From Antedon mediterranea (Eukaryota; Echinodermata; Crinoidea; Comatulida; Antedonidae), in NCBI RefSeq assembly GCF_964355755.1, contig NC_092671.1, forward strand, positions 36,225,304 to 36,289,303: DNA of 64,000 bases. The letters run 5' to 3'. The translations under genes and the position numbers were made by a program. The stretch's first letter is position 1; every line of letters begins with the position of its first letter. The notes beneath the pieces are model-generated. The model ran no database searches and was not told the origin of the DNA. It was given only the letters and a program-made list of their open reading frames with translations. Below are positions 6,101 through 56,081 of the stretch, one piece after another.

Positions 6101-9100
6101 CTTATAAAGCTTTGTTCCCACTAGGTTTTGCCTAACTCAAAACCTTATAAAGCTTGGTTCCCACTAGGTTTTGCCTAACTCAAAACCTTATAAAGCTTTG
6201 TTCCCACTAGGTTTTGCCTAACTCAAAACCTTATAAAGCTTTGTTCCCACTAGGTTTTGCCTAACTCAAAAGCTTATAAAGCTTTGTTCCCACTAGGTTT
6301 TGCCTAACTCAAAACCTTATAAAGCTTTGTTCCCACTAGAGTTTGCCTAACTCAAAACCTTATAAAGCTTTGTTCCCACTAGAGTTTGCCTAACTCAAAA
6401 CCTTATAAAGCTTTGTTCCCACTAGGTTTTGCCTAACTCAAAACCTTATAAAGCTTTGTTCCCACTAGAGTTTGCCTAACTCAAAACCTTATAAAGCTTT
6501 GTTCCCACTAGGTTTTGCCTAACTCAAAACCTTATAAAGCTTTGTTCCCACTAGAGTTTGCCTAACTCAAAACCTTATAAAGCTTTGTTCCCACTAGAGT
6601 TTGCCTAACTCAAAACCTTATAAAGCTTTGTTCCCACTAGGTTTTGTCTAACTCAAAACCTTATAAAGCTTTGTTCCCACTAGGTTTTGCCTAACTCAAA
6701 ACCTTCTATATAAAGGCTTGTTCCCACCATGGAGGAAATATCCTACTAGGTAATGCCTAACTCAAAACCTTCTAATAAATAATAATAATAATAATTTTAT
6801 TGTTTCTCTTTTAAAACAGAGGCACAATTCTCAAGAGATGTGCAACAACAAAAAAATAAATATGGACTTATCTTACTACACAATCATATACAAACATAAA
6901 TTATTACATTAAAAAGTATATAAACATTAGGTTATAAAAATTCATTCAATACATTTGAGCGAAAAGTAAAAGATTGTGTTATGGACGGATATTATAAATT
7001 TTGTTGCGTTCTTTCCATGCAGTTGTTAAAAATAATTTACAATATTTGTCAATGATGTTACTTGCTAATACATAGTTAATATTGTTTATACATTGGATTT
7101 GATATTCTTCATGAATTTCTAGGTTGTTAAAAAAAAGGTGATATTTAAGTTCAGGTGAGCTTGACGTGAATAAGTCCCATATTTTATGCAAATCATTGTT
7201 GCATAGATCTTCTTTAAGTTGTTTAACTATTGAGTTTCTAATATTAACTAATCTAGTACAATTGATTGAATACAAAATGATAAACTGTTTCTTTTTCACC
7301 ACAATTACGTAACAAACATGATCCTAAATGTTGTGGTGACCAAGCTTCCTTTCTTCCTTCGAGTGGTAATGAGTTAGAACGAGCTTTGAATTTTAGACTT
7401 GATGCATGGTAGCTACGTTTTTCCAATAAGTATTTTTCCATTTTAGGTTCATTTTTATATCTTAAGTAATTTGTTAAGGATGATTTAGTTTGAGCCTTGT
7501 TAAACCATGTTATGTTATCTTCTATAATATTTTTTCTTTAAAACCATTAAGCCACTTATTACAATAATCAATATTGAAAAACATTTGCAAATCAAATTTG
7601 TTTAAAATGGATTCAATCTTTTGGAGCCATTTCCAACTGAGTCTATCTTTAAGAACAAAGAGAGCTCTAAATAGTAATCTTTGCCAGCGATGTTCTTCCA
7701 TATTTTTTAGCCAACTGTATAGATTCAACTGATTGCCAGCCAAGTTCATCATATAGAGCTTCCTTTGCAACATATCTGGGTGCCTTTAATAGATATCTGG
7801 CCATTTGGTATTGTAAATTTTCAATTTTTTCTATAGAGTTCTTTTTATCACATAACCATATACTGCTTGCATAATTTATGGTTGGTATACCAATTGATTT
7901 CCAAAGAATATCACCATAGTATATTCTATTGAAGTCTTCCTGCCCATTTATTATAGATTTTATATATGATATTATTCTATTCCCCTTTTTAACTACTTCA
8001 TCAATATGGTAGGTATCTTTTATCTTCCTCGATACAAACATCCCCAAATATTTATAATTATTAGTTTCGTTAATAAAGTTATTACCAATTGGCCATTTTC
8101 TATATTCATTAAGGCGTTTTCCAGCTACAATAACATTAGATTTATTAAAATTAAACACCATTCTCCATTTTGTTGCAAATTCATTTGCTGCATCCAAAAG
8201 TAATTCTAAATCTTGCTCACTGTCTCCAATCAGAATTATATCATCAGCCCAGAATAGACTGCCAATATTTATGTCAAAAATATTAATTCCTAATTCTCTT
8301 TCTTTAATTATCTTATTAAGTTCATTTATATAAATAGTGAATAGAATTGGAGACAGTGGACAACCTTGTTTGACCCCTTCATCAATACTAAAAACATCAG
8401 TTTCTAAATCTCCAAATGAAACTTTACCTTTTACATCTTTATACAAGTTCTTTATAATATTTAATATTTGACCTTTGATTCCTATATTTGCAACTGCGTA
8501 AAATAAACCTTCTCTCCAAACGGTGTCGAATGCCTTACTGAAATCCATGAAGGCGAGATAAGTTTTCTTGCCTTCAGCTTGTCGACAAGCAATAATACTC
8601 TTCAGTATAAGGCTTGTTCCTACTACTGTAGATAATGTCTAACCCAAACTTTCTATAGGCTTGTTCCCACTAGGTAATGCCTAACTTAAAACCTTGTTCC
8701 CACTAGGTAATGCCTAACTCAAAACTTTCCATAAAGGTTTGTTCCCACAAGGTAATGTCTAACTCAAAACCTTCCATGTAAAGGCTTGTTCCCACTAGGT
8801 TATGTCTAACTTAAAACCTTGTTCCCACTAGGTAATGCCTAACTCAAAACTTTCCATAAAGGCTTGTTCCCACAAGGTAATGTCTAACTCAAAACCTTCC
8901 ATGTAAAGGCTTGTTCCCACTAGGTTATGTCTAACTCAAACTTTCCATATAAAGGCTTGTTCTCACTAGGTAATGCCTAACTCAAAACCTTCCATATACA
9001 GGCTTGTTCCCACTAGGTTATGCCTAAATTAAACCTTTCATATAAAGGCTTGTTCCCACTAGGTTATGCCTAAATCAAACCTTTCATATAAAGGCTTGCT

Positions 9101-12100
9101 CGCACTAGGTAATGCCTAACTCAAAATCCTTCTATATAAAGGCTTGTTCCCACTAGGTAATGTCTAACTCAAAACCTTCAATATACAGGCTTGTTCCCAC
9201 TAGGTTATATCTAACTCAAACCTTCAATATACAGGCTTGTTCCCAATAGGGATTGTATGTATGCAACGTATATATTGGTCATAAGTAATGTTAAAATCGT
9301 TTTTCAAATTAATTATGTTAAAATTGGAAGCAATCGCAGTGGACTTTATAAGAAAATGGATAGTCAAAAATTTAACTGATGAAACTATATAAATATTTAA
9401 AATGTTGGAAATTTGCTAACTGGATAAAAGATTAATTCCAAGTCCTGAATAATCATAATATTGTAATGTATTGAAAAATAAAGTAAGAAGAATATAACAT
9501 ACATTGTGTTGACGATAATGATGACGGATATTTACAGTACAGTATGTTAAAAACCATACAAAATTGGCTATATTTAGATCTTTAATGGATGGAAATATAC
9601 ACATAGCTTCAAAACAATAATTTAGCCGTAACGAGACAGACAGCAACATCCTTTGTAATATTTTTTTCCCACAAAGCTCAACATTCTCATTTCCTACATC
9701 TTATCCCCAAGGTCAAAGGGCACGAACAACACATTAAACGAAGTGCAGAACATTAATTTCTAATGTGATTTTGTGCATTACCCTACAAATGTCATTTCTT
9801 TCAAGTGCTTATAACGGACAACGAAATAGCAAATTTACATTTATAAGAATTGTATTAATAATTTAAACTATCTTGTTAAAATATTATAATCTAGGAACTA
9901 TAAATTTAAATCTGTAATTTATTAAGTTTTTCATACCAATTATTTATGGATTTTGTTATTTGTTTGTTATTATTTCTTTATACTGTACTGGGTAGTCAAA
10001 GTTTGTTCTCCCAGAGGGCTCAGTGTATGATGAGTACTAGGCTAGTACACAGGGGTAAGCCCCTACTCGTCTCCAAAGATGTACTAGGTGCACATGAGCT
10101 AGATTTGTACACTGGACCTATGGTTTATAGAAGACTCGTTCTACCACCAGAACCATGCAGCGAGTGAGCTTAGAACCTTGTCGATGTTATGGCTACATAA
10201 TTACGGTTCCACTGTCTTAACCGCTCGGCCAGTCACTCACTCTTATCCACTCGGCCACTATTCAAATTTTCTACTCCCCAGTCACAATTTAAAAAAAAAC
10301 ACTTTAGTACAAACATCCGGCCCATTACATTCCCAAGCTCTGTCTACACTATCAAATTGTATGTGACAACAAAATTTGATGTGCCCATATACAGTATATA
10401 CATGATGTCATATCACTACTATATTTGGGCATATTATCACTACCACATTTGGGCACATCACACTTTTTTGGTCAAACTAGTTTGATAGTGTGAACAAAGC
10501 TCTGTCTACACTATCAAATGGTATGTGACAACAAAATTTGATGTGCCCATATACAGTATACATGATGTCATATCACTACTATATTTGGGCATATTATCAC
10601 TACCATATTTGGGCACATCACACTTTTTTGGTCAAACTAGTTTGATAGTGTGAACAAAGCTCTGTCTACACTATCAAATTGTATGTGACAACAAAATTTG
10701 ATGTGCCCATATACAGTATATACATGATGTCATATCACTACTATATTTGGGCATATTATCACTACCATATTTGGGAACATCACACTTTTTTGGTCAAACT
10801 AGTTTGATAGTGTGAACAAAGCTCTGTCTACACTATCAAATTGTATGCGACAACAAAATTTGATGTGCCCATAAACAGTATACATGATGTCATATCACTA
10901 CTATATTTGGGCATATTATCACTACCATATTTGGGCACATCACACTTTTTTGGTCAAACTAGTTTGATAGTGTGAACAGAGCTTTAGATTACGCATCATT
11001 TGGATCTTAAAGTGAGAATAACTGTGTCTTACCTTTTTTGGGCCAAATACTTCTTGGTTATTATTTAAATGGTTCAATAATTTTAGGGCATTTTCATGGT
11101 TATTTACACCAACAAATCCATAACCTAAAGATTTGCAAACGCCAGAAGAATTCTTTCGAGCTAAATCTCTCATTATCCTAGCCTGAAAAAAATAATAACA
11201 TCATGTAAAATATAATTATATTATATAGTGTTTTTAGCAAAGTTGTGTCTTTCTGTCTGTACCCATTTTATACACCTGGGTGGAGAGAGGTAATGCAAGT
11301 AAAGCAGTGAGAGTTGGGTTCAAACTCAAGATCTCACGATCAGCAATCAAACACACTGCGACACATGCCCAAGTTACTAAATGACAGAAACGGCAATAAG
11401 GGTAAGAAAGATATAATAAGCTGTAAAAAGTGGAGTTTTTTATACAGGTTTTAATTCAGTTTCAATCAACAGTTTTTTCAACCATATATTTGAACCTGCT
11501 CATTCAACTTTGATGTTTGAAAGCTTGTACCGATTTTATATGTAAATCTCTCACAATTCAGTTTTATTTTATATATACTGCAAAGAGAATTATTGAATAA
11601 AAGCAGAATGAATGAATATTTGAAAAATTGACTTTAACATTAACATTTCAATTTCTATAGCGCCTTTACAAGGATCAAATTGCTTTACAAAGACCGATCA
11701 TCTCTTACAATTGATACAGCAATAATAGTAATAGTTGTAAAGTCATTAGAATAATTGTTTTTTTTTTTAAACATATTTTAAAAAAAACATATCGGGTATA
11801 GATGTATCACCTGTATCCTTTTACATATGGTCCTGTTTTTAGAAAATAAAAGGTTAACGAAGAATTAAACGAAGGAGACTAAAATGGTATGGACACATAA
11901 TTAGATTACCAGATGATACCCCAATCAAACAAACAATGAACGAAACTAAAAGGAAAGTAAAACGACCCGTAGGGAGACCAAGAAATAACTGGATGAACCA
12001 ATTTAAGAAAGACTTACAAGGACATGTAGACACTAACAAAATAACAAACCATCCTGCCATACAACAGACAAAAATGGAAACAAATTGTGGAAAGCGTAAT

Positions 12101-15100: not shown

Positions 15101-18100
15101 TTAATTTATTAATTGAAAATGAAATTATTTAAATGTAAATATAGTCGTCCTTATGTTTAACTGAGAAAATTCTAATTCATTGAATCCTCTATGGATACAT
15201 AATAGCCAACAATACAGTAAATCGTTTTGGAACTAGTGTGTAATTCAGTGTTATACATATATCGAGCGCGAGTTTTTAGTAGTAGGTAATTTTGTGTGTG
15301 TTCTATAGTGTTCTTATAGTTCTTGTATTTATATGAATTGTCATTTTATGATTAAAATAAAGATTATTTGAAAGTTGAAAGATACAGTGCTATACCACTC
15401 TTTTTTTAATATAGTGTACCAAGTTTTTTAAAGTGTGATGTGCCCAAATATGGTAGTGATATGCCCAAATATGGTAGTGATATGACATCATCATGTCCAT
15501 ATATGGGCACATCGCATTTTTTTTGTCATATAAAGTTTGATAGTGTAGACAGAGCTTAACAATGTGTACTATATGTACACGGGACCAACAGCTTTAGGTC
15601 CCATTTGAAGGATGTGTATTATAAGTAGTAAGGTAGAGACATACCGTTTCTGAAGTAGCAATGCATTCCTCAGCAAGATCTTGCGATTCAAATTTAACAA
15701 ATGCTGATCCTGGTAAAAAAATATCAATTAATCAATAAAAAACAAAGAAATAAGTATATAAAATAAAATTATAAAATAAAGATCTCTTTCTATACACAAA
15801 TCAATAAACAATGTTGAGCAGACCTAGGCCCATTTATGATTATTAAAACTTATTAGTTAAGAAAAACAAATCTTCGTTCTTATTGTAGAGCCCTTTATTT
15901 TAACGATCACGAAAATAAAATGTGTGCTAAAATCGCGGAATTCCAAATGATGTTGTTTACAGTCGATCAGCCTAGGTTTTATTAGCTAGGCCTAGGTAGG
16001 CTAATTAATATGGAAAAAATGAATATAAAATAGTTACACGAAGAACTTCTAATTGTGTATTCTTTGAAACATTTGTAATCCCCGATTATTTATATTGTTT
16101 GTTCAGGTGTAAATAGTTGGAATTGTAAAATTGCAAAAATTTAGGGCCACGAACATTTTGGCCTTTACAGTATATGAAATCTGTTGTTTTTTGGAGTTCG
16201 TAATTTTGTAATATTATATTTTTTGTTTTGAGGAGCTTATTCATTATACAAGCTATGGTTTTGTTTAGGCTCCTCCACTTTGTTTAAGTTATTAGTAAAG
16301 TGTAAATGAAATTATCTATAGAAATAGTGGCATATTGGTAGTATAATGTGAAAGTGAATTCAGTTTTATTCGTAAGAAAAAATAAGCAGTTACCTCGAAG
16401 TCGCTCTGTGCTAGGGTCGATGACAAGCCTACAATATGTTACTTCTCCGTATTCCTCAAACAACTCTGTTAAATCGTCTGCTGTGATATCAAATGGAATG
16501 TTCCTGAAAGATAACAAATTTTACAATTTAAAAAAACCATCATTTAATTTAAAATGAAACTTCGGATTGGATTTACATTTTTAACCAGACCGATATGCAA
16601 GTGCTCTTGAGTACAAAAGTCAAGTTTGGGGCGTTGGGGTACTTCAATAATAATGTGATTTTTTTTTTATGCCATGGTTGTGCAATGTCAATTAGTTTTA
16701 CATTCATCTGAATGATAGATAAAACTAAGGCAGGACGGTTTAAAGCACCTTGATTGGTCTTAACATTGATCAAGGGCTTCTCTCGTCCAGTACCCACCTT
16801 CAACAGAGGAAAGGCATGGGCCAATACGTCTGAGGCAGATACTAGATACAGGGGTTGCCATAAGAGTCAGCAGTGCCGATTTCAAATGGGACATACAGCA
16901 GTCATTATTCCCAAATGTTCTCTCATCCAAGCTCTAACCAGGCCCAACGTTGCTCAACTTCGGTGATCTGACGAGGACCGGTGTTTCCACATGGTAAGCT
17001 GTATATTAAAGTGAATAATTACCTAACAAATACAGTTTTACCGGCTGAAACATCGCTAATTCTCTTAAAACTTGATTTATTATCTGGTTTTTTAACTGTT
17101 GGTTGTGTTTTTCCTTCACCATTAGCTTCATCGCCATCAATCTCTTCTTCATCTTTATCTTCATCAATCTCTTCTTCATCGCCATCAATCTCTTCTTCAT
17201 CTTCATCAATCTCTTCTTCATCTTCATCAATCTCTTCTTCATCTTCATCACTATCGATCTCTTCCTCCTCAGTATCATCTTCCTCCACTTCAGATGTTTC
17301 ATCAAATTTCTCACTTCCCTCTGAATCCTCCTCATCTGTTATCTTTTCACCTTCATCATCTGACTCATCTATTACAAAAGAACAAATGTTTGCCAAATAT
17401 AAAACAAACAGATAAAGTGTGATGTGCCCAAATATGGTAGTGATATGCCCAAATATGGTAGTGATATGACATCATCATGTCCATATATGGGCACATCACA
17501 TTTTTTTTAAAAGAAAGTTTGATAGAGCTTAATATTCTTTGCTCTAAAACATTCTACACCTAAAAGGCAACGAAATACCAAACAGGTGCGAAAAACCAAT
17601 TTTAGTTGAAGCTAACTCAGACAGCGTCGTACGTCGAGGCCTGTCAAAGCGAGAAAATGAAAGATTCTCAACTCAAGATGACTCGTCTCGTCAGGAATCA
17701 ACTCAGACAGCACTGACAAGTCAAGAAGTTTCAATCCGTCCGAGTTGGCCAACTACAGTCCTATTATTTTCCATACCAATACCATATTATGTTTATAATT
17801 TTTCAACAAGTACTATGTTCGTTAAAAAGGTTTAAAATCTCTTGTTAACATTCGGCACACAGAGCTTGTTTGCACCAAATAATCTAAAGCTCTGCTTACA
17901 CTACCAAAGTAGTTTGACAAAAAAAAGTGTGATGTGCCCAAATATGGTAGTGATATGCCAAAATATGGTAGTGATATGACATCATCATGTCCATATATGG
18001 GCACAACACATTTTTTTTTTTAAAGAAAGTTTGATAGAGCTTCACATTTTTTGCTCTTAAACATTCTACACCTTTACCATCAATATTTTCGGTGCTCTCA

Positions 18101-26602: not shown

Positions 26603-27124
26603 CTATACCGTATTTGCTCCTTGATCATAATATCCAAAATCTTGTTGTTCTCCTGAAGGAACCATACACACGAATGGCCGTTCAAGCTCACACATAGCGT
26701 CATTCCACAATGGCATTCCTCGTCTTAAGAAGAAGGCAACACAATTTTCTATCTCACCAGATGATTGTTGACCGTTATCAGGTTGTTCTTGAGCCCAGTT
26801 TACGTATTGGAAAAGGGTTCCATCTCCCCATCTAAAAACTTCTTCGGTGTGGATGTCATTTCCGCTTGTCCAAACTGCGTAGTTTTGCGGCGAGATTGTT
26901 CCCATTAATTTCTTCAAGAAAATTTCGTCTAGTCTGCTTTTGAGAGAAATAAGCGACGCTGGCTCTCCTTGGCAGTTCATGAATCTCGAGCAAGCCATTT
27001 TTGCTTCGATCCATGGTAAAGCTTCTACAAAAATACGATAGCAGTTTGAATTATATTGTGTAAATAATGCCGGGCAACGGGCCGTTGCCACCACAAAAAG
27101 ACACGATAAAATAAGAAACCTCAT
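26603..27124 (-). CDS. Secreted C-type lectin-domain protein 1 (single exon, QPD/WND type)
   Basis: Intronless small secreted lectin of about 173 residues. The reading frame is open from 27148, but the methionine at 27124 is preferred because it directly begins a hydrophobic signal peptide (MRFLILSCLFVVATA) followed by the first domain cysteine (CPALF). The C-type lectin fold follows: NCYRIF, a CSRFMNCQGEPASL segment, WGDGTLFQYVNW, then QPDNG, ENCV, WND and the closing cysteine pair ending FVCMVPSG. QPD plus WND are the calcium and sugar ligands of galactose-type C-type lectins, so this copy may truly bind carbohydrate. It is the only one of the four lectins here with both motifs. The other three have a phase-1 intron before the last domain segment; this one does not. 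A poly-threonine-coding repeat lies just downstream (26401-26465). An AATAAA-type signal on the minus strand is at 26240-26245. Confidence 0.85.
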   Translation of the reverse strand: MRFLILSCLFVVATARCPALFTQYNSNCYRIFVEALPWIEAKMACSRFMNCQGEPASLISLKSRLDEIFLKKLMGTISPQNYAVWTSGNDIHTEEVFRWGDGTLFQYVNWAQEQPDNGQQSSGEIENCVAFFLRRGMPLWNDAMCELERPFVCMVPSGEQQDFGYYDQGANTV

Positions 27125-27149
27125 GTCGCAGCTTTCTAGTTTCAGCAAC

Positions 27150-28150: not shown

Positions 28151-28152
28151 TT

Positions 28153-28520
28153 CCTATTAAGGGGACACTTTTAACACTACGACCAATCCCTATTCAGTGG
28201 ACACTCCTATTAAGGGGACACTTTTAACACTACGACCAATCCCTATTCAGTGGACACTCCTATTAAAGGGACACTTTTACCACTACGACCAATCCCTATT
28301 CAGTGGACACTCCTATTAAGGGGACACTTTTAACAATACGACCAATCCCTATTCAGTGGACACTCCTATTAAGGGGACACTTTTAACACTACAACCAATC
28401 CCTATTCAGGGGACACTCCTATTAAGGGGACACTTTTAACACTACGACCAATCCCTATTCAGGGGACACTCCTATTAAGGGGACACTCTTAACACTACGA
28501 CCAATCTTTATTCAGTGGAA
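28153..28520. repeat. 53 bp tandem repeat, seven units, built on a MITE D core
   Basis: The unit is CTATTAAGGGGACACTTTT, then AACACTACGACCAATCC, then CTATTCAGTGGACACTC. It is nearly identical across units. Confidence 0.95.
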
Positions 28521-29149
28521 ACATCGTTCAAGGGGACACTTCGTTGAGTCCAGTAATTTTGGATCTACTGGAGTACGGTACTGTACTGTTTGGAATGATG
28601 TTTGAGTGTGTGTTATTCATCTAATCTGTCATTTTTGTTTAGCATCCATTTTTTTTGTTATTCCTAAATACGTTTTAGTTTGTTGTGTATGTTTTTTTTT
28701 ATCTTGCAAACTCATCATGGCCTGGCCTTGATCAGAGCTTTGATTTCTGTCCATGGCTGTACACGACCGATACACGACTGACAACTTTCAATTATGTATT
28801 CCAAAAATATTTAAAAACAATTGAAATACTACTTTACTATCTAAAAATAGATGAGCACCTGCACATTCGTATGGTTATTTTAGACGTGTATACCATGGGT
28901 ATAATATGTTCGTCTTTTTAAAATAGTTCAACTTACTTTAAAGACGCTATGGACGAACATTGCGTAAACGAAGGTTTTTACTGTGTAAATATATCCTAAT
29001 AATTAGCTTTTTTACTCCAAATAAGGTCTTTTAGCTTTACTCCAAATAAGGTCGTTTTAACGGTATACAAATATGACAATAGGCCTAATATTGTTATTGG
29101 CCAGACTTGACCTTAGCAATAAAATTAACTAAAGTGACAGAAATGAGTA

Positions 29150-36321: not shown

Positions 36322-36987
36322 CTAAAAGAGGGGTTGTAGTTCATCGCCAGCCGGCATTTCACAAACAAATCGCAGCTCACGATCACATGGCACCTCCCTC
36401 CACGTATGACCGAATTCGTTGGGAAATGTCCTTGCGCACGCTTCTACATTCGAGACAAAAAAGATAATTCAAAATATTAAATATCATGTATTATAAATAA
36501 ATAAAAATATTATAAATAAATAATAATTATATAATACATCACGGTACTGTTTTACAAGCAAGTTTCATTATAAAAGTATGAAATAAACATTATAAATATA
36601 TTTACCGCCTGGTTGGTTGTTTGCCCAATTTGTATAGCCGGGCCTATTTGACTGAGAATCAATTATATTCCCGGATTCCCACATCCAGAGATCTTGGTTT
36701 TGTGGGTCTTGCGTAAGGCCAAGCCATATTGGAAAAGTCGGTGGTTCCATCACATAGTCACTCAGTAGAAGATGCATGTAGTTGTCTTTCTGAAGACTTT
36801 CGATGCTTAGAAGTCTAGCAAGTTCGCCGTCGCACGAACCGTATCTTGAACAATACTCAGAAGCGGCTAACTTTGTTAAAGGCTTGTTGACATATTTGTA
36901 GCATTGTCCCCTGAATTGTACCCAAAAGGGAGGGCACCCAGCCGAAGCTGCCACGACAAGGCTGAACAATACAAGTATAGCTTTCAT
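36322..36987 (-). CDS. Secreted C-type lectin-domain protein 2 (two exons)
   Basis: Exon 1 is 36987-36606 and exon 2 is 36443-36322, joined by a phase-1 GT-AG intron; the protein is 167 residues. A signal peptide (MKAILVLFSLVVAASAG) is followed by CPPFWVQF and CYKYV, the CSRYGSCDGELARL segment shared with the other lectins here, IWLGL, WMWESG and YTNWANNQPGG. Exon 2 supplies EACARTF, TWREVPC and the closing LRFVCEMPAG. The sugar-site positions read QPG and WRE instead of QPD/EPN and WND, so normal calcium-dependent sugar binding is doubtful. The CxYGSCDGE insertion and the CY(K/R)Y motif recall echinoderm skeletal-matrix (spicule matrix) lectins; that link is inference from pattern memory. 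The gene stands alone between non-coding stretches, on the same strand as its three relatives. Confidence 0.85.
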
Positions 36988-37988
36988 GATGAGTTAGTAA
37001 AGACCCACCGACTAAAAATTTCGCTTCGTGATACAGCTTGTTATACCAAGACTGGCGATCAAGCCATCATAATGCCAAAAACTTAGTTTTCTTCATTCAA
37101 CTGTATGTGACGTCAGCGGAAGAGTGACCTCTGATTGTACCGTATCTCAGGCACTCGTTGACTCATACTTCAACTAAAGTTTTCAAGGATAGCGTACTGA
37201 GAAGTTTCAAACTTATTTTTCCGAATTATAATATTTTCACATAGTGTCTGTATTTGAAAGTTTATGAAGTCAAGGCCTTTGTATCTGTTCATGCCATTAG
37301 AGGCCCCATTTAACCTCACACTTTGTTAATACTTTAAAGTATCTGTTTTCCGTTGTTTCTAGCAAATAATATTTCCCAAAAGCAGTATAATCTACATTAT
37401 TATATTTTAAAAACACTATATTCAATGTCGTTACTGTTTGTAAATAATATGTCTTAAATTATATAACACACTATTGCCAAATGCTAGACAAACATATACT
37501 ACAGATTGAACGAAACAAAACACAATTTTGCACCACCCACTATGTAAAGTTGATGGATCTGTTGATATTTTTTTTTATTCACTTGCTTGTTTCCGTCACA
37601 AGGTTTTGTCTAATGTCAGTAATATCTAAATGTTGTCGTGTTATCTGTTGATTTTTGCTTGTATATATTATATTATATTTTATGACTTTCAACTCTGTTA
37701 ATGGTGACGTTTGGTCTAAAAAAATAATAATAATAAAATTTCATTTTTTTTAAAAATTATAAATCATATTGTGCTTATAAATATATTTCAATTTCAGTGC
37801 ATTTTAGGGCCTATAAGTATTAAATCTGCTAAGCATTTCAATATCAACCATTACTTTACAACGGAAATGTCTGTTTCTTTGTTTTAAATAATAATAAGTT
37901 TCATAGTTAACAATTTCTCATCATTACTTTTACCATCCTGAGTTACAACTCTGGACATTGGGATTGGAAGACAAGAGTGTTTGTAAAT

Positions 37989-42177: not shown

Positions 42178-43340
42178 CTACTGTATGGCAACTGGACGTC
42201 GGCGTGGTCCTACTGGTCGTCGATCTCCACTTGGCATTTCACACAAAATACCGGCGCGTATGTTGCAAGCGGTTGGCTTCCAGATTAAACCTACTGTATT
42301 TTGTAGCGCGGTATAAACACATTGTCCTAAAGAACGAAAACAATTTGTGTTATATAACATAGGTTATAATAAATAGGTTTTTAAAATCGCCGTTGCTAAA
42401 GATACGGTACCGTATCCATGCTTTTAAAAACTAAAGATACGGTAATTATAGAGGGCGCTTCCGTTTGCTAAAAGTACGGTAAAATTGCATTCCTAAAACT
42501 CGTACCTAAATATAAAACTCCTTCCTAAATATTAAACTCCTTCCTAAATATTAAAAACCTAACCCTCTAAATAATCTCTCTTAAATTAAAAACTAAAAAA
42601 AAAAAAAAAAAAAAAGACGTCAAGAAGAGTATCGAACCCCCAAACCCCTTAAGCCAAAGCCTCATCACATGCCCACTAGGCTACACAGCTGGCTTGCAAA
42701 AACCAATGCAATAACCTATTTGATTAACATCCACATTACATAGCGCCCTCTATAATTACCGTACCTTTAGTTTTTAAAAGTATGGATACGGTACCGTATC
42801 TTTAGACATAACGTTTTAAAATACTTTGACTTTTATTTACATTCACTACTAATGTCTTTGAATTTATATTCATCACTTACCGGTACCAATTGAGGGCAGG
42901 ACTGTTGAAGATACTCCAAAATTAGTATATGGTGGTACGGGTGGTACGGGTGTTACTCCTGCTCCGGGCTGTTGTCCGGCGTTTCCGATCTTTGTTCCGT
43001 CACCCCACATCCACCAAGCATTGTTTGCGCCAGTGGTGGGGTCCCTGACCTGTTGAAGTCTCAGGTTAAGCCAGAATGATGGTGGTTGCCGTTGTTGTTC
43101 TGATACAAACATGTTCATGTATTTTTGAAGGAGAATCGTTTCTCGGTGAGATTCGATCTGAACGACTTGAGCCATCTCGCCATCACAGTTACCATAGTCC
43201 ATACAAAAATTGATAGCTTGATCAATGGTGGCTGGTGTCCTAAAATATCTATAACATGATCTTCCTCCTGATGTCCATAGTGGTGGGCAGGTTGCCGCCG
43301 CAACAGCGATCAGAGCGAAAAGCGTTACAAACGACTTCAT
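42178..43340 (-). CDS. Secreted C-type lectin-domain protein 3 (two exons; tandem duplicate)
   Basis: Exon 1 is 43340-42881 and exon 2 is 42326-42178, phase-1 GT-AG intron, 203 residues. Signal peptide MKSFVTLFALIAVAAA, then CPPLWTSGGRSCYRYF, a CMDYGNCDGEMAQVVQIES segment, FWLNLRLQQV, WWMWGDG, and a Gly/Pro-rich stretch (PVPPVPPY) inserted where the sugar loop would be. Exon 2 carries GQCVYTAL, TACNIRAGILCEMPSG and a basic Arg/Pro tail. No QPD/EPN or WND motif is seen, so a structural or protein-binding role is more likely than classical sugar binding. It is a close tandem copy of the gene at 44499-45372, with near-identical signal peptide, promoter and 3' flank. Its intron holds a 426 bp MITE absent from the paralog. 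A minus-strand AATAAA is at 42093-42098. Confidence 0.88.
42388..42813. mobile_element. MITE type E, 426 bp, in the lectin 3 intron
   Basis: Inverted repeats of about 72 bp (shared blocks CTAAAGATACGGTACCGTAT, CTTTTAAAAACTAAAG, GGTAATTATAGAGGGCGCT) flanked by a 9 bp direct repeat TTTTAAAAT (42379-42387, 42814-42822). The lectin 4 intron has the empty site. Confidence 0.9.
42615..42705 (-). repeat. tRNA-like segment inside MITE E
   Basis: Minus strand: A-box-like TGTAGCCTAGTGGGC, B box GGGGGTTCGATAC, then a long T run like a Pol III stop. No full cloverleaf. Confidence 0.5.
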
Positions 43341-43410
43341 GATGGAAATTGAAAGGAGTTGTCAAAACTTTAGTGCTAACAACCAACCGAATGAACCAAC
43401 TTTTTCGTTC

Positions 43411-44498: not shown

Positions 44499-45372
44499 TT
44501 AAACAACTCCAGGACGTCGTGGTGGTGGTCCTACTGGTCCTACTGGTCGAGCTCCACTTGGCATTTCACAGATAAACGCCTGGATGTTTTGCTTGGCGGC
44601 ACAGGTGGTTGGGCTCCAGATATAATTGCCTAATTGGTTGTTTTGTGTGTGTATAACACATGATCCTAAAAAACAAAAACATATTGTTACATTACACAGG
44701 TTGTAATATATTGGTTTTTAAAATACTTTAATGGTCTTTGACATTTATTTACATTCATCACTATGTCTTTGAATTAACATTCATCACTTACCACCACCAC
44801 CTGAGGGCAGGATTTGTGTTCTGAAATTACTATATGGTGGTACTGTATTCCTGTTCCGGACTGTTGTCCGGCGTTTTTTTTAATACTTTAATGTCTTTTA
44901 ATTTTATTCATTACTTACCGGGATTCGCTTGGGGTAGGCGTGGTGTTGCAAAATTACTATATGGCGTTACTAGTGGTGCGGGTGTTATTCCGAATCCGGG
45001 AAGTTGTCCTTGCTGTCCGAGCTGTTTTCCGTCACCCCATACCCACCAATTAGCGCTTGAGCCAGTGTTGGGGTTCATGACCGGTTGAAGTCTCAGGTTA
45101 ATCCAGAATGATGGCAATTGCCGTTGTCCTTCTGCTGCAAACATGCTTAGGTATTTTTGAAGGAAAATCGATTCTTGGAGAGATTCGATCTGAACGATTC
45201 GAGCCATATCGCCATTACAGTTACCATGATCCATACAAACACCGGAAGCGTCATCAAAGGAGGCTACTCCCCTAAAATATCTATAACATGATCTTCCTCC
45301 TGATGTCCATAGTGGTGGGCAGTTTGCCGCCGCAACAGCGATCAGAGCGAAAAGCGTTACAAACGACTTCAT
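44499..45372 (-). CDS. Secreted C-type lectin-domain protein 4 (two exons; tandem duplicate)
   Basis: Exon 1 is 45372-44919 and exon 2 is 44665-44499, phase-1 GT-AG intron, 206 residues. It starts with the same signal peptide as the neighbour at 42178-43340 and keeps CPPLWTSGGRSCYRYF, then CMDHGNCNGDMARIVQIES, FWINLRLQPV, WWVWGDG and a Gly/Pro-rich loop. Exon 2 gives GSCVIHTQ, TTCAAKQNIQAFICEMPSG and a tail of Gly-Pro-Val and Pro-Arg repeats. As in its twin, QPD/EPN and WND are missing. The tail differs from the twin in length and repeat count, which suggests that C-terminus changes quickly. The intron contains a broken copy of an exon-1 3' end (44790-44873). A minus-strand AATAAA at 44476-44481 lies 18 bp after the stop. 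Confidence 0.88.
44790..44873 (-). pseudogene. Relic of a lectin exon-1 3' end inside the lectin 4 intron
   Basis: This stretch reads like the end of exon 1 of lectin 3 (the part coding the Gly/Pro loop, ending at a GTAAGTGATGA donor) but is shortened and has no usable acceptor. It lies downstream of the functional exon 1 of lectin 4. It shows that the locus has undergone internal duplication beyond the simple two-gene copy. Confidence 0.65.
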
Positions 45373-45459
45373 GATGGAAATTGAAACGAGTTGTCAAACA
45401 GAAGACTTTAGTGCTAACAAACAACCAACCAACTGAATCAACTTTTTAGTCCGCAAATG

Positions 45460-45479: not shown

Positions 45480-46485
45480 GTGGAGCTACGGCAAAACGTG
45501 TTACTTCCCATGTCACTGCGAATACACAAGCGCGCGAAGTACGCAGAGGCCTTGATCCAATAAGAACAAGCGATTTAAAGTGATTCATTCTAGGTAAGTG
45601 ACGTGTAAACAGTTTCTGCGGATGTTTAAAGTATCGATCATAGGAAATAGCTAATCATATCTTTTTAGAAAGTGAATAATAAGACCAAAGCTTGAGTTTT
45701 TCAATAATTTCAACAAAGATGGAGTATTATTACTATACATTTGGGACACCCCTATTCAAGGGGACACTAAGGTCGAAGGTGTCCCTATAATAATATGTTT
45801 TACTGTATTGTTTTATATCTATTAAATTGGTTTCTATATGAAACATGAACAACAGGTTGGAGTATGATTATAATTGGTAGTATACTATCGTTTTATTTAT
45901 TTGTTGACATAATATAATTGTTTATGTTTTTCTTCCCGGCGCACACGTGTACAAAATGCAAAATAACTAAAAAATATAACAACATTATGGTAAATGGGAA
46001 GACATACGTTATCAGGGAAAGAATTAGAATGTCAATATGGATAGTCTTGTGTGACTTTCTGTCATTGTTATCCTTTAAACTTTTTCGGAATTTTTTTCGT
46101 TTTTAATTATTAAATTAATGTCTACTTAAATAATCATTTACTAAGAGTAGTATCAGTTTAACATATTCTATGTATAAATATACATAACAATTAATGATAA
46201 AGGGGAAAATATCTACATATCCAGGAAAGAAATGTTTTCTCAATGTTGTAGAGAAAAAAAAATAGACCGCAAAAAACAGGTACCAAAAAATCTTAACTTA
46301 TATGAAGAATAATCAGTCAAATGTCTTTCTATAGGTGGCGGTAGTCATTAATAGTTTTCCGAGTTCAATATCAGAACTTTTGTTGTTTTAACAATTTAAC
46401 GATTTAACAAGCACGAATGTGCAATACTCGGGGTACAGCGAAAGAAGCTGTATACAGACGTATACAGTTAGAAAGTAAAGAAAAT
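45480..46485. other. Intergenic DNA upstream of lectin 4
   Basis: Contains a MITE D fragment at 45745-45800 (ACACCCCTATTCAAGGGGAC, AAGGTGTCCCTATAAT); otherwise nothing recognised. Confidence 0.5.
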
Positions 46486-46557
46486 AGGTTTCGCCAGGGC
46501 TCGAACCGGGACCTTCTGCGTGTTAAGCAGACTTGACAACCACTACACTACGAAACC
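46486..46557 (-). tRNA. tRNA-Val(AAC), possibly degenerate
   Basis: The minus strand reads as a cloverleaf: acceptor arms GGTTTCG and CGAAACC pair perfectly; A box GTGTAGTGG; anticodon loop TTAACAC (AAC, valine) in a TCTGC/GCAGA stem; B box GGTTCGAGCCC. A run of T's (TATTTTC) follows as a Pol III stop. The T stem has one mismatch and the D stem is weak, and the whole is one base shorter than usual, so it may be a pseudogene. Confidence 0.65.
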
Positions 46558-46769
46558 TCTTACATTAAAAATGTGGGTTACAGAAAGTTTTTTAATCCAT
46601 TTAAATTACAAATAAATGGTAATAAGCACAAAGCAAAATAAACATGTGTAAAAGTGATAATTACCGATTACACAAAATAAGTATTTTAAAAAATAATAAA
46701 AATAAGATATACTCTGTATAATTATCATATTGCGTATACAGTACTTTTCACCATAAATTAAAAAAAAAA

Positions 46770-46841
46770 GGTTTCGTCCGGGCTCGAACCAGGTACCTTC
46801 TGCGTGTTAAGCAAACGTGATAACCACTACGCCAAGAATCC
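46770..46841 (-). tRNA. tRNA-Val(AAC)-like, probably a pseudogene
   Basis: Minus-strand sequence with TAGTGGTTATCACG D arm, TTAACAC anticodon loop (AAC, valine), B box GGTTCGAGCCC and a long T run directly downstream. The acceptor stem (GGATTCT with CGAAACC) has two mismatches. It lies about 210 bp upstream (minus-strand sense) of the similar tRNA at 46486-46557, so the pair probably arose by local duplication. Confidence 0.5.
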
Positions 46842-48333: not shown

Positions 48334-48384
48334 AAGCTAACTCTAGTGACACCGGACCAAAACATACCATCGTAAAATGCTAGT

Positions 48385-48533
48385 GGTCTAATGATAGTGT
48401 GATGTTCCCAAATATGGCAGTGATATGCCCAAATATGGTAGTGATATGCCCAAACATGGTAGTGATATGACATCATCATGTCCATATATAGCCACATTTT
48501 TTGTCACAACAGTTTTATAGTGTAGACAGAGCT
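48385..48533. mobile_element. MITE family B, left end worn
   Basis: Three ATGCCCAAATATGG-type motifs and right end ATAGTGTAGACAGAGCTTA. Confidence 0.85.
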
Positions 48534-48953
48534 TATACACACCTGGTATGTTGAATAAAAACACAAAATGCTAGAATAGGAAAGACTAGAATAAGGAGGA
48601 GTTCAGAAAACATTCGACGTCCGACAAAACAATTTAACGACATTTAATATCAACAACGTTAATAATTAATTGTTGGTTCATCAGTTCAAGTCTTAATTTA
48701 TTCCATCTATGCATAATAATAATAATCATTGCATTATCACCATGCGAGGTATATACATCGTCCAATGGAAAGAATATAAAAAAGTCGTTGGCCAGTAACA
48801 AATACGGGAATTCGCGAAGAACAATAGGCCTACAAGTTCCCATAATAGAAGAACTGCGGGTGTTAAATACACCATTGAATCAAACTAGTTGTCTTTATTA
48901 CGCACTCCATTATAATACAAGACACGATACCATTTAGTATCATTAAGACTCGA

Positions 48954-51145
48954 TTGAATTCATTCAGAGTCGACATGAACAGGACACAGAAACGACGAAA
49001 TTCGTTAGCGATTCCAGTACCGTCGTCGCCACGTGAATTCGGAGTCGGCGGTAAGAACGGAACACAGGAACGACGAAATTCGTTAACGATTCCAGTAACG
49101 TCGCCACGTGAAATCAGAGTCGGTGGTAAGAACGGAACACAGAAACGACGGAATTCGTTAGCGATTCCAGTAACGTCGCCACGTGAAATCGGAGTCGGTG
49201 GTAAGAACGGAACACAGAAACGACGGAATTCGTTAGCGATTCCAGTAACGTCGCCACGTGAAATCGGAGTCGGTGGTAAGAACGGAACACAGGAACTACG
49301 AAATTCGTTAACGATTCCAGTACCGTCGTCACGCGAATTCGGAGTCGGCGGTAAGAACGGAACACAGAAACGACGAAATTCGTTAGCGATCCCAGTAACG
49401 TCGCCACGTCCTTCTTCTATAGAAGCTCGTAGAAAATCAGCGGACAGTGGTTTGTTGCCCAGGCCTACATCTAGCTCTGACGATCAACCTGTACTTCAAG
49501 TTCCGAACAGCTTCAACAGCAGGCGGAGGTCTTCCATATCGCATAACATCGAGAGGTTAACAAATGCTAGAGATGCAAGGACCGCTGCCATTGAAAATCT
49601 CGTGGTTACAAATAAAAAAAAACAAGATAAAGCAATGGAAAAAAAATACACCCAGAAGGTAAGAAATTTGGTTGTGAAATTCAAATTGAAAAATAATATA
49701 TCATCTTTTCAAGGTTATATAGATATTCATGAACAATATTATTTATTTTTATACCTACTGTGTAGGCCTATAATATCTCACGTCTACCGTTTGAAATGTA
49801 ACTAGATTTGAACTCGTCACTTTGACGAGTTAGTTATCCGCACAACAAACGCCACGTGCACGTCATACATTAGAAAATGCGCAGAGCCTGTAAATTAAAT
49901 TTATATGATATATAGAGACAGTTTCTTGTTCGCAAATGTTTGGTATTGTCCATTTGTATAATACATGTGAAATCACATCCGTATTTATACTGGGAAGGTT
50001 TTAAACTATACTTTTAAAATAAATTCAAAAATTAAAGTACAGGCCATCTGGCAGTGGCGTAACGGCTAGAGCGTTCACTGGCTAAACCCAGGGGGCCCAT
50101 AAGCAGCGGACCAGGGAAAAAACAGGCATATCCCAAAAAAGGCTAAAAACGCCCAGCATTGGAGTACCACTTAGGGTTCCTAAACCAGGGGCCTCATGTC
50201 TCTTCGTAACGCAACTGCTTTCTGGGGCGCGTGTCTTTGCGAGTCAATACAATTAAAGAATGCAGGGCCAAATGTACGTCACATGCGGCGGGAACGATTA
50301 CTTAATATGATTTCTACTACTAGGCCTACTACTTATAATAATTACTAAAATGGAAGGTATAAAAATAATAACTAAGATTCCTTTTTGTAACAGCCATACA
50401 AATTATAAGCGAAGTTACAGAACGTCTCGAAACCTGGTTGTTACAAAAGAAATATTTGTTATACCTATTGTATAACCAAATGACATTTGTCCAACATATA
50501 AATATAATGTACATTTATTTACAATAGACATCCGACGAAAAATTGAAGAGTGACGATACAAGATTGAAAACACCTAAAAGCAACTGGAAGAAAGCAGATC
50601 CAATAGGCCTACAACAACCAGACATGAAGAAAAAAACAATAGAACAATCATCGGGAAAAACAGTAAAAAACCAAAGTATAAACTCACAACGAAGACGTTC
50701 AGTGGTAACAGGACTTATTGATGTTTCCGGGGAGCCTATAAACCTCGCGGCTTTAATGGAAAAACAAAAATTACCTAATGATGAACAAGCAAATAACTCG
50801 AACAGCAAAATAGAAGCAGGTACCGACGTACATGGTACACGAAAACCGAATTCAAAAAAGAATTCTATTCGTACGATGGAACAAATCGTTAACGACGTGG
50901 AAGAAGAGTTAAAGGAACGGATAGATAAACGGAAAGCGGCAGAGGCTCGTTATAATACAAGGCTATACGACTCGACGTCCCGGAATCAGTTTTATCTCCC
51001 GCCTCAACTACATCAACGTAACCAAACGCGCAGAGGGTCCATTCAACTTAAAAAGTTTCTAGAAAGTGTTAACGATGAAAGACGTACAATTGAAATTATT
51101 GAAATGAACGAAATTAGATTAAAAAATGCAAAAGAAGGACTATGA
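48954..51145 (+). CDS. Unknown basic protein with six R-R-N-S repeats (two exons)
   Basis: Exon 1 is 48954-49658 and exon 2 is 50528-51145, joined in phase 0 (AAG/GTAAGA donor, TTTACAATAG acceptor); 440 residues. I do not recognise the family. Residues ~7-155 are six near-identical repeats of 25 residues with core QKRRNSLAIPVTSPRE, encoded by 75 bp units that are almost identical in DNA, so they were copied or homogenised recently. Further basic-Ser motifs follow outside the repeats: ARRKSA, SRRRSSIS, QRRRSVV and TRRGSIQL. R-R-x-S followed by a hydrophobic residue is the classic PKA-type phosphorylation consensus, so this may be a multi-site phospho-target. The second half is charged and probably helical (VEEELKERIDKRKAAEARY). 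No signal peptide or membrane segment is visible. An AATAAA signal lies at 51209-51214. The start is the first ATG of the open frame; MNRTQKRRNS at 48975 is an alternative. Confidence 0.8.
48975..49415 (+). repeat. Coding 75 bp tandem repeat, six units
   Basis: GGTAAGAACGGAACACAG starts each unit; units differ by a few bases. Codes the R-R-N-S repeats. Confidence 0.95.
49850..50500 (+). other. Intron of the R-R-N-S repeat gene
   Basis: Holds an unclassified GC-richer segment at 50040-50270 starting CATCTGGCAGTGGCGTAACG, which looks like a dispersed repeat. Confidence 0.4.
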
Positions 51146-51208: not shown

Positions 51209-51214
51209 AATAAA
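51209..51214 (+). other. Polyadenylation signal of the R-R-N-S repeat gene
   Basis: AATAAA 64 bp after the stop codon at 51145, on the coding strand. Confidence 0.5.
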
Positions 51215-51559
51215 AAAAGATCTACAGTTATATAGTATAGTACAATGCAGTATACACACATCTGGGTGTATAGTGGCGAGAGGTACATTATACAGTATTG
51301 ATATTAGAAGCAAGATAAAGTGAATAAGTTAATAATATTCTTCTTTATATTTAATTAACCTAATAATAATAATGAAAAACAATATAATAAATGAATAGAA
51401 TAGTTCTATTACGTAATATCAGCGAAGAGTGCAATTTTACTCTTCCCTTGTAATAATTATAAAATACAATTGTAAAACAGACGTATACGCTTCGGGTTTA
51501 TTTATTTAAGTTATAGATCCAGGTTTTTGAAAACAAAAAACACTCTTTTTTGTCTTTGT

Positions 51560-51779
51560 AAAGCTCTGTCTACACTATCACTACTCCCGTGTCATACTTA
51601 TATGGTTTTTTTTTGTTATGTAGAAAGATAATAATAAAATCAAACTTGACAAAATAAAGTGTGATATGCTCAAATATGGTAGGTGATATGCCCAAATATG
51701 GTAGTAATATGACATCATCATGTATGGGCACATCACATTTTTTTGTCACATAAAGTTTGATAGTGTAGACAGAGCTTAA
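51560..51779. mobile_element. MITE family B copy with insertion
   Basis: TAAAGCTCTGTCTACACTAT at left and GATAGTGTAGACAGAGCTTA at right, with about 60 extra bases in the left part. Confidence 0.9.
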
Positions 51780-51789
51780 CACTACAAAG

Positions 51790-53070: not shown

Positions 53071-53083
53071 TATTTTCTAGACA

Positions 53084-56081
53084 ATGAATTACGAAAATGA
53101 CATAAACATGTGCGATTTAGAAGCTTCCACAGAACTACAATTAATCTCTGATGACCTAGTGGAAGTTAAGCAAAACGACAGTAGCAACCAAACTGACCAT
53201 AAGTATGACCACATTTCAGATGAAGTGTTTATCAACGGTCAAGGCAAATACTGCTTAGATCTAAGTGAAAGCGGGTTAGAGCAATTACCTGATCAAGTAT
53301 GCTCAATTGACTACCTACAGTGCTTGCTACTTACAAATAATAATTTGGAAGAGTTATCTTCTAAGGCATCATCCATCACTGATCTGGAGATACTAGTATT
53401 ACAGTTCAACAGCCTATTTCATGTCCCTAAAGTCATTTTCAATTTACAGATTCTACAAATTCTAGATCTCAGCTCAAATGAAATTGTGAAACTTCCAGCA
53501 GAAATTTCACAATTAAAAGGTTTAAAGCAATTATTTGTAAATGATAATCGTCTGGAAGAAATTCCTGAAGAGTTGTGTTCCTTAGTTGATCTAACCGCTT
53601 TCTGCGCAAACCAAAACCAGCTTAAATCGCTGCCATCAGCGATCTCACGTTTGCGTAACCTACGTGTGCTTGCTTTGAACAATAACCGCCTTCAAAGATT
53701 ACCTAAGGAGGTATGTCTACTCGACCAGCTCGTGAAGTTGACCGTGTCTGGCAATTCTCTTCAAACTTTACCAGCTGACATTGAATTTTTTTTCAATCTA
53801 ATTGAGTTACATTTGGATAGTAACTGCTTAGAATATTTGCCAATACAGATGTACTGGTTACCTGAATTACAAGAGCTTAACCTTTCAAACAATTGTCTGA
53901 GAGAACTTTCAACTGAAATCAACCAACTGGACAAATTAAGAATCTTAAAACTGAATAACAACAAACTTAGAACATTACCTACGAGTCTCTGCCAACTATC
54001 TGAACTTAATGTTTTGGGTTTGAATGGTAATCAACTTGAACGTTTACCTAAAGGTATTCATCATCTACATAAACTGCAAGAGCTTTACTTGGACAACAAC
54101 AGCTTCAAATCTCTACCGGATGAGTTGTCTTTGCTGTCTAATCTTAGAGTAATTGATGTTAATGGAAATAAGCTTGACAGTATACCTGTTGAGTTCTCAA
54201 ATCTTAAGTACACTCAACAATTATCAATGTGTTCTAACATATTTAAATCTCTGCCGCTTGCTGCGTGTTCCATGCGGAAGATGGAAGTGCTAGCATTAGA
54301 TAACAATGTGCTGACCAGCATGATACCAGAAATCTCAGAGATGGAATCCTTACACACTGTCACCCTGTCCTCAAACAGTTTCAAAGACTTTCCTTTTGAG
54401 CTGACACACATACGATCTCTAACAACTATCAATTTAAGTGACAATCTTCTTTCCAACTTGCCATCCCAGATTCGACACCTGAGTAACTTAAAACATTTAG
54501 ACTTGACCAAAAACCAATTTACAACTATGCCTGAAGAAATTTGTAAACTGGAAAAGCTAGAAAAGCTGGCGATGGCCGAAAACAGCATCACAAAACTTCC
54601 TGAAGACATCAGCACGATGACGTCATTAACAACTCTGGACCTATCAAACAACAACTTCAAAACCTTTCCAATAGAGGTGTGTGGCTTACCAGCCATAGAG
54701 GTGTTGATCTACAAACAGGCTTTAGGATGCAAAAGCACATTTATACCAGATAACATCAAAGACCTTGGATTACTTAAAGAACTATATGTGGATGATAATG
54801 TTCTAGAAACATTACCAAAAACAATTTCAAAGTTGCAGAATTTGATAATCCTCTCTTGCCGAAACAATAACATTTCTAGACTCCCCAACTCGTTTGCTGA
54901 ACTTCAATCTTTACGTTGCTTGGACTTGGAAAATAATCAACTGAGTGATCTCCCAAGAGGTTTTGATAAGTTGACCAACTTACACCAGTTAAAGCTTGAG
55001 TTGAACCCATTAACTCATCCACCATCGCAAATATGTGATGGAGGTGCAATGCAACCTATTTCAAGGTTTTTAATGGCTGCTGCAGCCCATCAAGGTACTA
55101 ACATAAGCATATATATAATTTAATTTCATATTCTGTAAAAACATAATTGAAATTCTTCTATAATGACCAAGTATAATCCCATGCTTGTTCAAGTATAATC
55201 CCACCTCCTGATTTAGGCTAAATTCAGACACAAGACTTTGGTAAATCCATTGTTTAATCCAAGTATAATCCCATGCTTGTTCAAGTAAAATCCCACCACC
55301 TGATTTAGGCTAAATTCAGACAAGACTTTGGTAAATCCATTGTTTAATCCAAGTATAATCCCATGCTTGATCAAGTATAATCTCACCACCTGATTTAGGC
55401 TAAATTCAGACAAGACTTTGGTAAATCCATTGTTTAATCCAAGTATAATCCCATGCTTGTTCAAGTAAAATCCCACCACCTGATTTAGGCTAAATTCAGA
55501 CAAGACTTTGGTAAATGCATTGTTTAATCCAAGTACTGTATAATCCCACCTCCTGATTTTTGCACAAGGCCTTCTAAGACTCTGACATTCATTCAATTTA
55601 ATTTATTTCCACATACACCACCCACATATGGAAGATGCATATCAAATATAAGATCTGTGCTACGCATTAATAATAATAATAATGTAGCATGGCACCATGA
55701 CTAAAGTGATGTGTTTTATGTTGTTTTACAAACTACCAAACCCTCTGTAAATAGTCTTAATTATTAAAAATCACTTTTTATTATGCAGATGCGCTGTTGA
55801 AGAAGATGTTTGAGTGCGTTTCGTACAACATGCGCGAGCGTGAAGCGAAGGAACTGATGCGTGTCTTTCGTTTCAGTAAGGACGTTACTGAATCAATTGA
55901 GAAAGAGTACAAAGAAGACACGCGTAGTATGGTGCTCCACGTACTCAAAAGGTGGCGTAAATCGCGACAGAAAAATGCAAATGCATCCGAGTTAATACGA
56001 TATATCGGTCTAATAATGATGCCCGTCTTGGCAAAAAAACTGTGTTCTATTAATTTGTATGCGCAATCACACAAACTATAA
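53084..56081 (+). CDS. LRRD1: LRRD1, leucine-rich repeats and death domain protein
   Basis: Exon 1 is 53084-55094 and exon 2 is 55789-56081, joined in phase 1 (CATCAAG/GTACT donor, TTATGCAG acceptor); 767 residues against about 860 in the human protein. Residues ~60-650 are some two dozen tandem leucine-rich repeats of about 23 residues (pattern LxxLxLxxNxLxxLPxxI), the short regular type typical of this family. Exon 2 codes a death-fold domain: ALLKKMFECVSYNMRERE, a conserved KEDTRSMVLHVLKRWRKS core, then a helical tail ending AKKL. The LRR plus C-terminal death domain order is that of LRRD1. Its cellular role is poorly known; protein-protein scaffolding is expected. An acceptor (TATTTTCTAG) just 4 bp before the ATG suggests an untranslated first exon upstream. 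The intron between the coding exons is mostly a 90 bp tandem array. Confidence 0.9.
55150..55560. repeat. 90 bp tandem array in the LRRD1 intron
   Basis: Units end TGTTTAATCC at 55260, 55350, 55440 and 55530. Each has CAAGTATAATCCCATGCTTG and TTTAGGCTAAATTCAGACA. Confidence 0.95.

Follow-up and report, generated by a model that had tools for sequence, protein, structure and literature searches.

A two-exon gene of the crinoid Antedon mediterranea with a tandem R-R-N-S array encodes a basic protein enriched in candidate PKA-type sites

A 75-bp tandem array in the genome of the crinoid Antedon mediterranea spells out the same R-R-N-S site over and over, which raises the question of whether it belongs to a protein-coding gene and whether its sites have meaning. 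PKA prefers R-R-x-S followed by a hydrophobic residue, as in kemptide; the R-R-x-S motif itself is short and common to several kinases. The locus was analyzed in a window of 64,000 nucleotides, the whole stretch of DNA under analysis, and the positions given below are counted from its first letter.

The array belongs to a plus-strand gene with two exons. Exon 1 (48975..49658), recognized by its open frame, a consensus donor, and a helix in the structure prediction, comprises the ATG, the six-unit array, RRKS and RRRSS sites, and the predicted helix (residues 183-226). Exon 2 (50528..51145), recognized by open frame, codon score, and structure prediction, consists of 205 codons plus TGA at 51145; it carries the sites RRRSV, KKNSI, and RRGSI and predicted helices at exon-2 residues 117-147 and 168-204. 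The GT-AG intron between them (49659..50527, plus strand) contains stop codons in all frames and scores low on codon usage. Its donor (AAG/GTAAGA at 49658/49659) matches eight of the nine consensus bases, and with the acceptor (...ACAATAG/ACA at 50527/50528) it joins the exons in phase 0. An AATAAA polyadenylation signal was read from the sequence at 51209..51214 on the same strand. The first-pass annotation had started a protein of 440 residues at 48954, which is a TTG lying 21 bases upstream of the first in-frame ATG (48975); the spliced product is 433 residues long. It has a mass of 48.4 kDa, a pI of 10.7, and no cysteine, and its 86 basic versus 46 acidic residues give a net charge of +40.

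A run of 205 stop-free codons, as in exon 2, has a chance of about 6e-7 per start in the local non-coding background. The corresponding figure for the 228 stop-free codons of exon 1, about 1e-7 per start, is optimistic because the array is richer in G+C than that background. Codon scores rest on a training set of 29 kinase exons from this genome together with the exon of the LRRD1 orthologue described below. Read in the plus frame, exon 2 reached a per-codon score of 0.095, which falls among those of the kinase exons (0.05-0.24) and exceeds every one of 3000 non-coding samples (maximum 0.043). The 83 non-repeat codons between the array and the donor gave no clear coding signal by codon usage. 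Both exons are thus coding by open frame and exon 2 additionally by codon usage; judged on its sequence, the gene is real.

Tandem Repeats Finder (TRF) and unit alignment placed the array at 48977..49409 (plus strand; period 75, 5.7 copies, 91% matches). Each of the six N-terminal units encodes 25 residues in 75 bp, except unit 1, which has one extra codon (78 bp), and five units contain R-R-N-S. The six tandem units had been described as each carrying KRRNSLAIPV; only units 1, 3, 4, and 6 contain the exact motif. In unit 2 the sequence is ERRNSLTIPV, with the R-R-x-S site retained, and in unit 5 it is ELRNSLTIPV, with the site lost. Units 3 and 4 are identical at 75 of 75 bases, which makes it plausible that repeat number varies between individuals or species. 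A variant (P-S-S...R-E-F and GGC) occurs in units 1 and 5 and in no other unit; the array is therefore a mosaic that fits unequal exchange or conversion. Variable sites among the units, counted by hand over units 1-6 with the divergent end of unit 6 excluded, comprised about seven amino-acid-changing and four silent ones, near the neutral expectation. The array thus gives no sign that purifying selection has acted on its motif, and by itself it cannot show that the sites matter. This N-terminal third of the protein is most likely young.

The rest of the chain was more informative. The whole protein has ten R-R-x-S matches in nine separate places, in agreement with the earlier count of at least nine PKA-type sites. 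Four more sites had been reported outside the repeats; these are indeed four places (152, 183/184, 283, and 396), holding five overlapping matches. Given the composition of the non-repeat part (289 residues), 0.24 matches would be expected there instead of the five observed, and a count of five or more never arose in 20,000 composition-preserving shuffles. For RR.S[LIVMFS], nine matches were found versus 0.14 expected in the whole protein and four versus 0.07 in the non-repeat part. Exon 2 alone contains two R-R-x-S (0.11 expected, P = 0.004) and three [RK][RK]xS-hydrophobic sites (0.14 expected, P = 0.0003). Tandem copying of a 75-base unit accounts for part of the high motif number, and the excess outside the array shows that duplication is not its only source. 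This non-array enrichment is the best evidence that the motif has meaning and that both exons belong to one protein.

The enrichment of R-R-x-S-hydrophobic beyond composition is what a multi-site PKA-type substrate would present. The sites mostly have a hydrophobic residue at +1, and the residue after R-R-x-S is L, I, V, or S in nine of the ten matches. The Akt/S6K pattern R-x-R-x-x-S had no match in the protein, so the sites fit PKA better than Akt/S6K; PxIxIT, RVxF, and classical NLS patterns were likewise unmatched. All five repeat sites as well as RRKS, RRRSS, RRSSI, and RRRSV match the canonical 14-3-3 pattern. The RRNSL sites stand at residues 7, 33, 58, 83, and 133, with spacings of 25 or 26 residues and one gap of 50, so that at the level of sequence pattern canonical motifs are paired far enough apart for a 14-3-3 dimer. 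The EB1-binding pattern [ST]-x-[IL]-P was not matched (the units read SLAIP, one residue out), nor was the RII-binding amphipathic pattern used for A-kinase anchoring proteins.

AlphaFold2 was run without relatives on two models, one for each exon. Overall confidence was low (pLDDT 55 and 65, pTM 0.31 and 0.22), and the strands drawn in the array, with pLDDT near 50, are unreliable. Three long helices were nevertheless predicted at a local pLDDT of mostly 80 to 96, and RRRSSI, KKNSI, and RRGSI lie at or directly ahead of a predicted helix start. Internal homology of the three segments made of R-R-x-S-I plus helix was not significant (P = 0.15 to 0.93). Charge-hydropathy analysis predicted disorder for exon 1 and exon 2. 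The protein had been called probably disordered; because of the three helices predicted with high local confidence, this description is best limited to the array and the linkers, and the chain as a whole is probably not disordered.

We propose with moderate confidence that the gene encodes a basic cytoplasmic target of a PKA-type kinase, a multi-site phospho-switch possibly read by 14-3-3. The tandem array would multiply a kemptide-like site, R-R-N-S-L, in the N-terminal third, and more candidate R-R-x-S-hydrophobic sites are spread over the remaining residues, some of them located at the start of a predicted helix or shortly ahead of it. A basophilic kinase, most likely PKA and otherwise PKG, Aurora, or CaMK, would phosphorylate several of them, and the strong positive charge would drop stepwise; with about ten sites phosphorylated, the net charge of +40 would fall substantially. 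Phosphorylation would also create paired docking sites for 14-3-3 at a spacing of about 25 residues, fit for a 14-3-3 dimer. A multi-site basophilic-kinase target appears a reasonable reading because the repeat and non-repeat parts each show enrichment of the motif on their own.

The closest working model, by analogy, is the R region of CFTR, an unstructured stretch with many PKA sites, nine phosphorylated sites that bind 14-3-3, and stepwise regulation (PMC10341646), a mode of action that the crinoid protein with its candidate sites would share. The R region belongs to a larger channel protein as one of its segments, with sites that are not tandem repeats of a single unit, whereas the crinoid protein is free-standing and takes half of its sites from a homogeneous array; we claim no sequence relation. 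The first-pass annotation had suggested a graded phosphorylation target or a kinase sink. The CFTR analogy makes a graded response plausible, and the idea of a kinase sink found no support. A bolder extension, which we rate as a long shot, is a crinoid-specific phospho-counter: copies of a PKA/14-3-3 (possibly phosphatase-docking) unit would set the valency of the charge switch, so that individuals or species with different repeat numbers would differ in the threshold of the cAMP response. Provided that the sites are in use and copy number is variable, the locus would offer a natural series for testing phosphosite number against signalling threshold, in a little-studied deuterostome group.

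Profile and sequence searches gave no relatives. The best matches were 11.8 bits in Pfam (cut-off 21.5), 8.7 in NCBIfam (cut-off 50), and E = 0.015 in PHROGs; the PDB, axonemal chains included, gave no match at E <= 10, and IMG/VR viral contigs and GTDB prokaryotic genomes contained no relatives. The claim that the protein has no known relative therefore holds for these six collections, which are without eukaryotic proteomes. A literature search turned up no papers on RRNSL repeats or on a multi-PKA repeat protein from an echinoderm. The source genome (354 Mb, 18 contigs) has no paralogue or second copy, and the gene is single-copy there. Orthologues are likely in other crinoids, and the gene is probably restricted to crinoids or echinoderms. 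It encodes an uncharacterised orphan protein with what looks like a known style of regulation.

The main rival to the phospho-switch is neutral minisatellite growth, since the divergence between units shows no selection on the motif. A fast-evolving orphan protein would then have had a minisatellite expanded in frame by chance, its R-R-N-S sites being unused passengers. We consider this a tentative but real possibility: units 3 and 4 are identical, the ratio of changing to silent sites is about 7:4, unit 5 has dispensed with the site, and the window holds many more minisatellites without coding sense. It sits poorly, however, with the enrichment of R-R-x-S outside the array and with the finding that units differ in length by a whole codon only.

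A second explanation, which we regard as unlikely, would make the product an axonemal or cytoskeletal protein of sperm or cilia that flagellar PKA would phosphorylate upon activation of motility. The neighbouring gene on the downstream side, likewise on the plus strand, is an LRRD1 orthologue (53081-55123), apparently one long open exon, with E = 9.5e-99 to PDB 9ijj_4X; the sperm axoneme chains 9ijj_4X and 9fqr_Xo were both matched at E about 1e-98. In mammals LRRD1 is a sperm-specific component of radial spoke 3 (PMC11779644), and it has been placed in the central apparatus too (PMC12297659). This adjacency points no more than weakly to sperm: gene neighbours in animals as a rule lack a functional link, and on the other side lies a cluster of secreted C-type-lectin-like genes (26603-27148, 36568-36993, 42873-43361, and 44911-45393, all on the minus strand). 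The reading as stated also invokes a basic array with coiled-coil-like helices, and three helices are predicted, but no axonemal chain in the PDB matched the protein. It is compatible with the phospho-switch, to which it would add a place of action.

Rather improbable is a nuclear or nucleic-acid-binding protein released from its ligand by phosphorylation. In sea-urchin sperm histones H1 and H2B, tandem SPKK phosphosites control charge. The likeness lies in an echinoderm basic protein with a tandemly repeated, here putative, phosphosite, and the pI of 10.7 with 86 basic versus 46 acidic residues would suit such a role. The histone repeats, however, are proline-directed tetra- or pentapeptides, not R-R-x-S; the crinoid protein lacks SPKK and SPRK (its units read SPRE), shows no classical NLS when scanned with a simple pattern, and contains no histone domain by profile search.

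The repeat unit could also be taken as a PKA site joined to L-x-I-P, resembling the LxVP docking motif of a calcineurin-regulated substrate. The phosphopeptide of the PKA regulatory subunit RII is a calcineurin substrate, and there too R-R-x-S adjoins an LxVP-like docking sequence, in the reverse order to that of the crinoid protein. The loose pattern L.[LIVAPM]P gave seven matches (six in the units, and LQVP at 174) versus 0.46 expected; the single one outside the array was not significant (P = 0.23), and no PxIxIT is present. As the refined polar-hydrophobic-LxVP definition (PMC5156906) was not matched either, we hold this reading to be distinctly improbable.

That the array codes on the opposite strand, or not at all, has very little probability. 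Exon 1 alone is undecided on strand because the array scores high on both (plus 0.225, minus 0.186) and a 206-codon frame runs open across it on the minus strand as well. Exon 2 speaks for the plus strand alone, its minus frames scoring from -0.211 to -0.100 against 0.095, and clean splice sites join two exons in which the same motif is enriched.

A neuropeptide precursor cleaved at KR pairs between repeated peptides is extremely unlikely and was disfavoured: KR precedes NSLAIPV in four units but is missing in units 2 and 5, no amidation glycine stands ahead of the basic pair, the ORF has no signal peptide, no compatible upstream signal-peptide exon for the acceptor at 48967 was found under the donor and length limits used, and SLAIP is absent from the main text of a crinoid neuropeptide survey (PMC9793003). 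As given there, the crinoid L-type SALMFamide ends in GLRFHKGAPF-NH2 (PMC9793003). A degenerate L-type SALMFamide pattern had one match in the Antedon genome (reversed control, none), in the context ...RGLRFHKGAPFGKR..., with the expected amidation glycine and cleavage pair, in keeping with a crinoid genome.

Several other elements were recorded in and around the window. A dispersed repeat within the intron (50040..50240, plus strand), tRNA-derived and SINE-like by eye, was detected by DNA search at no fewer than 40 genomic places, most copies having 71-79% identity. A MITE-like element with AAGCTCTGTCTACACTATC ends and internal GTGATATGCCCAAATATGGTA copies flanks the gene, one on each side (48340-48545 and 51550-51780), and recurs at 10335-10983, 15435, 17419, 17929, 38740, and 61754. 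Kinase matches occur on contigs C1 to C11 of the genome, and a protein-kinase exon, NEK-like by eye, lies beyond the window end; just past the window (L033, about 2300-3200), a tandem array open in several frames (GTTSVPGTTSVP...) precedes a NEK-like kinase gene. A 5S rRNA-like sequence (16890-17006, minus strand), possibly a 5S-derived element, lies beside the end of a repetitive, highly acidic ORF (17019-17471, minus strand). Two neighbouring tRNA-Val(AAC) genes were predicted (46485-46558 and 46769-46841, minus strand), only one of them above the Rfam cut-off, and an open frame at 7667-8638 (minus strand) is reverse transcriptase-like, by eye a LINE fragment. Homogeneous minisatellites outside recognized genes are located at 6087-6705 (43 bp x 14), 28152-28541 (53 bp x 7), and 55167-55535 (90 bp x 4).
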